The notes beneath the pieces were generated by a model. That model did not search any database, was not told the origin of the DNA, and worked only from the letters and a program-made list of their open reading frames with translations. From Alkalispirillum mobile (GTDB lineage Bacteria; Pseudomonadota; Gammaproteobacteria; Nitrococcales; Halorhodospiraceae): DNA of 64,000 bases. The stretch covers positions 186,001 to 250,000 of the forward strand of contig NZ_RCDA01000003.1 of the NCBI RefSeq assembly GCF_003664325.1, given 5' to 3'. The translations under genes and the position numbers were made by a program. Below, piece by piece: positions 45,707-48,549 of the stretch. Each line of letters starts with the position of its first letter. The first letter of the stretch is position 1.

Positions 45707-46078
45707 TGGGCCACCTGGCGCGAGACTCCGCGCCGGCGTTGGACGAGGTGTTGCGCCCGGCTCAAGCCGTCAACGACAACTTGGTCTCTGGCAGTGCCGG
45801 GGGTGTGTTGGAGCGACCGAATCCGGGAACTACGGCCTTGAGGGCGCGGACACTTCCAGCAAGTAGAGGATCCTGACCGGTTTAACGGACTCTTGTTCCA
45901 TGCGCTGCGTCGGATGGGCAAGGCGGGGTTGAACGACTGCTGCAGGGGCTGAGGTGGCCCCGGTGCCATGGGCGGCAGCACTCGTCAAAAAGGGGAGAGG
46001 TCAGGCGCACACTGAAACATGCCTGTTTAATTAATTACTTTAATCCAAACAGTCTGCTTCTTTTGATTCCTGGATATC

Positions 46079-46097
46079 AATTGACACTGTCAATTGT
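46079..46097. promoter_or_regulatory. perfect 19-bp palindrome, candidate operator
   Basis: CAATTGACA (46079-46087), one central C, and TGTCAATTG (46089-46097) are perfect reverse complements. The palindrome contains a TTGACA hexamer on each strand, so it may cover a -35 element of a promoter reading toward the lipoprotein gene. No convincing -10 lies at 16-18 nt, so the promoter itself is uncertain. Confidence 0.55.
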
Positions 46098-46240
46098 GAT
46101 CTGCTCGACAGGCTAGGGAGAAGCGGCTAGGCTAAAGTTTATAAAAAATCATTAATACATCGTGGGTAAAGTCTGATGCTTGGGGCACTAGACGCTACTC
46201 TCCACGTGTTTTTCCAGAAGTGCACAATAACGCTAGGGGT

Positions 46241-46370
46241 GCCCGGGAAACAGGGCTAAGGGCGATGTTGGGCAGTCTGCCTGGCATCGCCTGGAGCGCA
46301 CCCGTATAGGGCTGATGGGATCAGCCGCGTGGTGCGAGATGGAGCTGCTGACCGTTCGGCAGCATTTTTT
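46241..46370 (+). ncRNA. structured leader RNA or small RNA with terminator/anti-terminator pairing
   Basis: Successive stems: GCCC/GGGC (46241-46244 with 46253-46256); GGCGATG/CATCGCC (46261-46267 with 46285-46291) enclosing GGCA/TGCC; CGCACC/GGTGCG (46297-46302 with 46331-46336) enclosing GGCTGAT-GGG-ATCAGCC; then the terminator stem. The 5' terminator arm GCTGCTGA (46344-46351) can instead pair with TCAGCCGC (46321-46328) at seven of eight positions, so two folds exclude each other. I compared it by eye with c-di-GMP-I and SRP RNA and found no match. Confidence 0.5.
46344..46370 (+). terminator. rho-independent terminator-like stem 18 nt upstream of the lipoprotein start
   Basis: GCTGCTGA (46344-46351) and TCGGCAGC (46356-46363) form an eight-base-pair stem with one G-U pair and a CCGT tetraloop, followed by A and six T residues (46365-46370). 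Its place directly before the AGGAGGGA ribosome site suggests attenuation of the lipoprotein gene or the 3' end of a small RNA. Confidence 0.65.
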
Positions 46371-46387
46371 GGTTAGGAGGGAAGCGA

Positions 46388-47596
46388 ATGACTTCGAACG
46401 TGAATTTGTGGGGCCGTCACCTGGGCCGTCTTTTGGTTGCAGGCGCCGTGGTGCCGCTGATTGTTGCTGGTTGTAACTCCAGCAGTAGCAGTAGCAGCGG
46501 CAACGGTGGCGATACCGACCGGGACGTTCAGCAGGTCCAGTTGACTCAGGAAGAGGCAGATACCGCAGCAGCGGCAGGGTCTATCGATGCGGTGGATGAG
46601 GTTGACACCCTTATTGAAGCCGCGATGGAGCAGGCAGAACCGGAGGGCGGGTTTGATCTCGCGGGCGGGGCCGTTGCGAGTGGTGCTTCCGAAATTGAGG
46701 AAAAGCTGACCCGGGAATCTGGTGGAGCCATCGCCGCCGGCTCAAATGGCTGGGGATCGCATCAATGTGGTGAGGGCGGCACTATCAACGTTGACCGTGA
46801 CGTGGACTTTCTGGATGTCCAGGCGGATCAATGCCGGGATGTTGAGGAACAAGACGAATTCATGTACTTCCGTTTGGAGACTCTGGTCGACGGTCAGTTG
46901 ACGGTGGACGAGTCGTGGGCATCTGAGTCCCCGGATTACGCGAATGTAACCAGCTTCGACGCCAATGATTGGCTCACGGAAATCGCAATGGAGTCTGGGG
47001 ATGCCGAGCCGCTAACATCCGTCATGCGCATGAACGGTGGGATTACCCATGAATACAACGAGAACAATAACGTCGAGGACGATTTCCTCACTCAGATGAC
47101 CCAGGACTTCTCGCAAGACATCACCATGGAGTGCGGCAGTACCTACTTCGATATGGAGTATGCGGTCGCTGGGGGCAATGGTCTGAGGGTTGAGGCTACG
47201 CCAGTCTCTGGGGCTGACAAGTTTGACTTGAGTATCAACGGCGGGCTCGTTATGAGTTTTGCCAGTAACGCCTCCGGTAGTGGTCAAGGCTTTCAACAGG
47301 AATTGACTTGGGAGACGAAGGAGGACCTGCGGTACAGCACGGATGCCTATGAAGATGGCGAGTTCCCGGAGACGGGTACGCTTGCGGTTTCCGGCGAGGT
47401 CGGGGGCCAGGCTGTTGACCTGATGCTTACCTACGGCAACGGAGAGGTATGCGTTGAAGGGGCCACTGGGCCGCTCGATGCAGGAGACGGCTGCTTCACT
47501 CAGGCAGACTTGGATGACATGGACGAGGACGACGATGCCGAGGAGTTCATCGACTTTGATGAGTCAGCCTTTGCTGAGTGCACGCCATCTCCGTAA
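46388..47596 (+). CDS. acidic lipoprotein of unknown function
   Basis: 402-residue protein with a 28-residue signal sequence and lipobox LIVAGC (Cys29), a seven-serine linker, then an acidic, Gly/Asp/Glu-rich domain with about seven cysteines that could form disulfides (SHQCGEGG, QADQCRD, TMECGST, EVCVEG, GDGCFTQ, FAECTPSP). No domain was recognised. Codon use is visibly less GC-biased than in neighbours, suggesting a recent arrival or weak expression. Its own region carries an operator-like palindrome and a structured leader; a hairpin follows the stop. The TPR lipoprotein gene is convergent. Confidence 0.75.
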   Translation: MTSNVNLWGRHLGRLLVAGAVVPLIVAGCNSSSSSSSGNGGDTDRDVQQVQLTQEEADTAAAAGSIDAVDEVDTLIEAAMEQAEPEGGFDLAGGAVASGASEIEEKLTRESGGAIAAGSNGWGSHQCGEGGTINVDRDVDFLDVQADQCRDVEEQDEFMYFRLETLVDGQLTVDESWASESPDYANVTSFDANDWLTEIAMESGDAEPLTSVMRMNGGITHEYNENNNVEDDFLTQMTQDFSQDITMECGSTYFDMEYAVAGGNGLRVEATPVSGADKFDLSINGGLVMSFASNASGSGQGFQQELTWETKEDLRYSTDAYEDGEFPETGTLAVSGEVGGQAVDLMLTYGNGEVCVEGATGPLDAGDGCFTQADLDDMDEDDDAEEFIDFDESAFAECTPSP

Positions 47597-47638
47597 AGCG
47601 CATCTTTTAGTACTTTGTTAGTCATCTGTATGGATAGT

Positions 47639-47666
47639 GCCCGGAGGAGGTTTTCCCTCTCCGGGC
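47639..47666. terminator. hairpin between convergent lipoprotein genes
   Basis: GCCCGGAG (47639-47646) pairs perfectly with CTCCGGGC (47659-47666) around a 12-nt loop containing TTTT, and ATTGTCTTCT follows. It lies 43 nt after the unknown lipoprotein stop and ends 9 nt before the minus-strand gene end, so it can serve both transcripts. Confidence 0.6.
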
Positions 47667-47674
47667 ATTGTCTT

Positions 47675-48409
47675 CTAAGGTGAGGCGGCTTGGTGGTCGG
47701 GGTGGTGAAGGTGCAGGATCTGCTTGGCCTGGTCCGCTGCCTCGTCGTCGCCCTTCTCTCGCAGTGCGCTCACCTGTAGTGCCATTGCATCGGCAGCACT
47801 GGTAGCCCTCGGGTAGTGTTCTCCTACGTACCGGGCGCGATCGAGCGCTTCTTCATAATTGCCAGCCGCGAGTTGTTCTTCTGCTAATGCCAGTTCATGT
47901 CGGGCCACCGACTCCCTCAGCCGGCTCATTGCCTCGAGCGCTTTCTCCGCGAACTCACTCTCTGCGTCATGCTCTGCCACATCGCGATAGGCGCCGAACG
48001 CCTGCCTTGCCAGTTGCTGGTCCCCGGGGCCGTCGTCCTGGCTCGCCTCCCATTCATGTTCCTTCGCCATGGCCCGGACATACAGGGCGTAAGGGACAGC
48101 CGGATGATCGGCCTGCTGCTCGGCCAGTCGGCCGGAAACGGCGCGGGCCTCCGTCATGTCCCCAGCCTGGTAGGCAATCCAGGCCAATTCCGCCTTGGCC
48201 TGGCCGGCATGCCCCGAACCCGGGTGGGCCTCCAACAGCCCATTAAATTTCGCCTTCGCTTCCCCGCGCTCGCCGGACTCGAGCGCCTCGACTCCCGCTC
48301 TGTACAAATCGGCAGCAGAGGCGGTGCTCCGCTCCGGACCGGATGTGCTGGCACAACCGGCCAGTGCCGTTGCAAGCGTGGTGTAGAGCAGCAAAGAGCG
48401 TGCGCGCAT
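47675..48409 (-). CDS. TPR-repeat lipoprotein
   Basis: 244-residue lipoprotein with lipobox LAGC (Cys19) and about five TPR-like helical pairs: ADLYRAGVEALESGERGEAKAKF, HPGSGHAGQAKAELAWIAYQ, and AEEQLAAGNYEEALDRARYVGEHYP. The arrangement resembles BamD/YfiO in outline but the sequence is shorter and more divergent, so I do not call it BamD. ATG 48409 follows GGAGTCCC. It is divergent from gspC, with 140 nt between, and might assist secretin assembly (inference from position and lipoprotein-TPR type). Confidence 0.75.
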   Translation of the reverse strand: MRARSLLLYTTLATALAGCASTSGPERSTASAADLYRAGVEALESGERGEAKAKFNGLLEAHPGSGHAGQAKAELAWIAYQAGDMTEARAVSGRLAEQQADHPAVPYALYVRAMAKEHEWEASQDDGPGDQQLARQAFGAYRDVAEHDAESEFAEKALEAMSRLRESVARHELALAEEQLAAGNYEEALDRARYVGEHYPRATSAADAMALQVSALREKGDDEAADQAKQILHLHHPDHQAASP

Positions 48410-48549
48410 CAGGGACTCCAATCCAACTTTCTGGCGAAGGCTGCAATGGTAAATCATCGGTCTGCCCGTAGCGATTCCCACCAGGGACGAATGGCTTCAA
48501 TGGGTGGGGTGACTGCGGTATCCTGCCGCAAGACTATCGGGGGCCCGGA

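Follow-up and report, generated by a model that had tools for sequence, protein, structure and literature searches.

Premature termination of transcription in a leader, with read-through into the gene behind it, is an already known kind of control (PMC7815308, PMC6786874, PMC11394854). RhlS, a 5' UTR-derived sRNA of rhlI in Pseudomonas aeruginosa, has been shown experimentally and is Hfq-dependent (PMC6786874), and the mpl leader of Listeria monocytogenes, Rli51, is a 121-nt RNA formed by premature termination (PMC11394854). IspZ and ChiZ of Escherichia coli are likewise 5' UTR-derived RNAs that act as sponges of known sRNAs, and the 3' end of IspZ has been ascribed to intrinsic termination (PMC7815308). 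Here we describe a structured stretch in front of a lipoprotein gene of Alkalispirillum mobile, lying in a window of 64 kb (the whole stretch of DNA that was analysed). It is probably the leader of the lipoprotein gene, carrying an intrinsic terminator that would form by default, with the mRNA arising by read-through; expression of the gene is thus probably restrained by premature termination.

Hairpins and terminator of the probable leader

The original prediction had described four perfect stems, the last of them terminator-like with six T residues and the ribosome site of the lipoprotein gene right behind it. All four hairpins are present (Table 1) and the fold is strong, but the stems are not perfect throughout and include G-U pairs and a bulge. 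The minimum free energy of 46231-46376 is -72.1 kcal/mol, against -56.1 +/- 3.7 kcal/mol for shuffled sequences (z -4.34; none of 200 shuffles as good), and 4 of 1826 windows of 140 nt, taken from both strands of the 64 kb, lie equally far below the expectation from GC content. Among the most deviant 140-nt windows of the 64 kb is also the strongly structured stretch 47597-47740, where the lipoprotein gene converges with a minus-strand gene (47675-48481) and which is probably a terminator region common to both.

Table 1 Features of the leader and its surroundings (positions in the window)
Feature	Position	Strand	Basis
Most promoter-like upstream stretch	46039-46133	+	weight-matrix scan; weak
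Palindrome of 29 bp, GATATCAATTGACA-C-TGTCAATTGTGATC, perfect only in its inner 9-1-9 part	46073-46101		palindrome search
Alternative helix P1: GGGTGC 46237-46242 with GCACCC 46298-46303	46237-46303	+	folding
Hairpin, 4 bp	46241-46256	+	folding
Hairpin, 14 bp (3 of them G-U)	46261-46291	+	pair probability about 1, all transcripts tried
Nested hairpin, outer stem bulged	46297-46336	+	folding
Inner stem GGCTGAT-GGG-ATCAGCC of nested hairpin	46310-46326	+	formed in every case
Intrinsic terminator: 8-bp stem, CCGT loop, A, T6	46344-46370	+	pattern scan; pair probability 0.94-1
Shine-Dalgarno AGGAGG	46375-46380	+	sequence
Lipoprotein, 402 aa, lipobox VAGC ending at Cys29	46388-47596	+	sequence and profile searches

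The terminator part of that description was confirmed. The stem-loop occupies 46344-46363 and the T6 run 46365-46370, which ends 17 nt before the ATG at 46388, the ribosome site starting 5 nt past the T run. In equilibrium folds the pairing probability of the terminator and of both main hairpins is near 1 for every transcript start tried, from 46074 to 46231, and the outer stem of the nested hairpin forms mainly when the transcript starts near 46231-46241. As a base rate, a strict terminator pattern was sought in 442 kb of stretches from the same genome, where it occurs 19 times; the terminator of the leader is the only one of these 5-45 nt ahead of a same-strand start with a ribosome site. 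Random placement would give 0.9 of 19 under a loose criterion and 0.1 under a strict one (ATG with AGGAG or GGAGG), and the position directly before a ribosome site is thus suggestive, and not significant alone.

The labile part of the leader is 46297-46303, which in the folds pairs either upstream, as P1, or downstream, and leaves the terminator unaffected. P1 encloses the 46261-46291 hairpin and is mutually exclusive with the outer stem of the nested hairpin. It is favoured in transcripts starting at 46208 or farther upstream (probability 0.67-1), whereas the competing pairing of 46297-46302 with 46331-46336 (GGTGCG) is favoured when the interval of the original prediction is folded alone. 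When longer transcripts are folded, P1 and the GGCTGAT hairpin become part of a junction, which is closed by a helix near 46221-46225/46332-46336.

Predicted promoter region and probable passage through the terminator

A simple consensus scan found no promoter anywhere. By weight matrix, 46039-46133 contains the promoter-like pairs TTTAAT-17-TTTGAT, TTGACA-18-TCGACA and TCGACA-17-TAGGCT, with predicted starts at about 46074-46140. These outscore, though still weak, any site with its -10 element between 46340 and 46376, where the best score is poor and about 1340 sites in the 64 kb score equally. Because the ribosome site follows the T run so closely, the mRNA would have to start upstream of or within the terminator, and since no credible promoter was predicted behind the terminator, the lipoprotein mRNA would need to pass through it. 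A terminator embedded in the leader, with read-through, is therefore probable, and a short RNA is possibly released; the terminator itself was found, and the promoter is predicted, from weak weight-matrix sites.

Transcription would start somewhere in 46074-46231 and, judging from the terminator, most polymerases would halt near 46370, leaving a structured RNA some 140-300 nt long. The lipoprotein mRNA would come from those polymerases that read through, as no promoter fits between the terminator and the ribosome site. Such read-through may be basal, setting a low level, or may be regulated by something acting on the terminator.

At the promoter, the palindrome at 46073-46101 may provide an additional repressor site. 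This A+T-rich sequence, a possible repressor operator within the predicted promoter region, belongs to a set of 12 perfect 9-1-9 palindromes counted in 442 kb. The operator candidate TTGACANTGTCAA has two further genomic sites, with one mismatch apiece, and no pattern was seen among these two. A 19-bp palindrome, GTAATACACGGTGTATTAC, occurs twice on L060, at 10425 and 10504 (79 bp apart), possibly as paired operator sites.

The compact structured module with its terminator end would also suit a stand-alone sRNA gene (46231-46370, about 140 nt) that works in trans and has a leaky terminator, adjoining the lipoprotein gene by coincidence. We consider this unlikely: the best promoter for a start near 46231 is poor (-10 element CACAAT, about 805 equal sites in the 64 kb), and the lipoprotein mRNA would still need to pass through the sRNA module. 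In addition, a covariance model of the leader (R1) recovered the window alone among 54 genomes of the order, with no second instance. At nine further positions R1 matched weakly (E 0.036 to 1); these matches were rejected, the six inspected lying inside long open frames and so being taken as chance. Nor was there a family match. Rfam (release 15) gave none in the window at gathering thresholds, and its sole permissive match, Esr41 (16.4 bits, threshold 102), lies on the opposite strand and outside the element, in agreement with the earlier remark that no known family was recognised.

The proposed antiterminator

It had further been proposed that 46321-46328 pairs with the 5' terminator arm, 46344-46351, to the exclusion of the terminator. 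Pairing is possible at 7 of these 8 positions, with a C/U mismatch at 46326/46346, a count that is mildly unusual among shuffles (P 0.03). The best duplex energy between the terminator arm and the upstream sequence is matched by 34% of shuffles (P 0.34), however, and the longest pairing run by 86%. In equilibrium folds of complete transcripts the alternative pairing has a probability of about 1% or less, and in folds of growing transcripts it dominates only for 3' ends at 46358-46361, where the 3' terminator arm has yet to be finished, and vanishes once that arm is complete. With its mismatch, its chance-level energy and its rarity at equilibrium, the mutually exclusive pairing is not supported, and in these folding models the terminator is on by default. 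Of the architecture originally proposed, a leader terminator with read-through is retained on the grounds of its anatomy and of the lack of a promoter behind it; the antiterminator switch is not, and there is no positive evidence of a riboswitch. No mutually exclusive antiterminator beyond chance, the mark of a classical attenuator, was found.

It is improbable, then, that a ligand or a stalled ribosome shifts 46321-46328 onto the terminator arm, as in a riboswitch or a leader-peptide attenuator. Forcing the alternative pairs costs only 1.9 kcal/mol relative to the best fold, a gap that binding of some factor could in principle overcome, but nothing in the sequence points to such a factor. A 14-codon open frame from the ATG at 46265 to the TAG at 46307 (46265-46309) ends just 5' of the GGCTGAT hairpin, as a leader peptide might, but 40% of shuffles yield a frame of at least 8 codons with a ribosome-site-like motif. 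CsrA-type GGA motifs, judged by eye, were discounted, being expected in a G-rich leader.

Relatives of the leader and comparison with known systems

The lipoprotein has no match in Pfam, nor have three of its homologues, and none in PDB; NCBIfam gave only SsuA, far below threshold (17 bits vs. a cut-off of 163.5). Its AlphaFold model (pLDDT 32) was unusable, and no relatives were found in plasmids and viral contigs. A profile of the protein retrieved five homologues with clear E-values from another family of the same order, the upstream region being readable in four and cut off by a contig end in the fifth. In all four the 300 nt upstream contain no terminator. This absence of the leader, together with the weakness of the promoter predictions, speaks against the leader-terminator view.

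A DNA search with the leader found nothing in 40 relatives, nor in plasmids and phages, and a 25-base leader pattern had no match in viral contigs. The sole other copy is on PWLM01000118.1 (L004), from a metagenome bin that bears the title Bacillus sp. CSSed10_241R1. Because collinearity with the window extends over 8.6 kb and identity downstream is mostly about 99%, this contig appears to come from a strain or sister species of Alkalispirillum mobile, and its Bacillus title probably reflects a binning error. Its leader matches 46231-46387 without a difference, which provides no test of covariation and is uninformative on selection because other nearby stretches are likewise unchanged. As far as the sequences compared go, the leader element is best read as lineage-specific.

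Between 45005 and 46500 the divergence from L004 falls from about 6.6% to under 1%, dropping abruptly at the stop codon of the ABC permease gene upstream of the leader (46 differences in its last 699 bases, then 4 in 524), which suggests a recombination boundary. The lipoprotein gene differs at 47 positions, 25 of which change an amino acid, and has a pN of 0.027 vs. 0.002-0.008 in neighbouring genes; it may be evolving fast or under relaxed constraint.

Conservation no farther than a near-identical strain would fit a chance array of hairpins that arose in GC-rich intergenic DNA and hardly affects expression, as would the random-placement expectations given above and the equally structured windows elsewhere. 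The deviation across the whole element (z -4.3) and a good T6 terminator directly ahead of a perfect ribosome site nevertheless make such an array as doubtful as the riboswitch or attenuator. Very unlikely, too, is that the leader is a sensor of a kind not yet recognised, its junction responding to a ligand or physical signal and so setting read-through into a surface lipoprotein.

If the leader does carry a default terminator with read-through, it would extend premature-termination control to one more gene, from a lineage where RNA has been little studied, and would supply one candidate short RNA. Its importance would be greater only if read-through responded to a signal, and the analysis gave no sign of a response. 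The leader is best read as ordinary in kind, its sequence indicating neither a ligand nor a trans target. It resembles RhlS in termination within a 5' UTR that yields a short RNA with a gene downstream (PMC6786874), a likeness drawn without a claim of sequence homology and differing in that RhlS is established by experiment and requires Hfq. With IspZ and ChiZ it shares the 5' UTR origin; their sRNA targets are known, whereas none is indicated here. Like Rli51 it combines premature termination in the leader with read-through into the gene (PMC11394854), but for Rli51 an antiterminator of greater stability is predicted and an sRNA partner is known, whereas here the terminator is the stable state.
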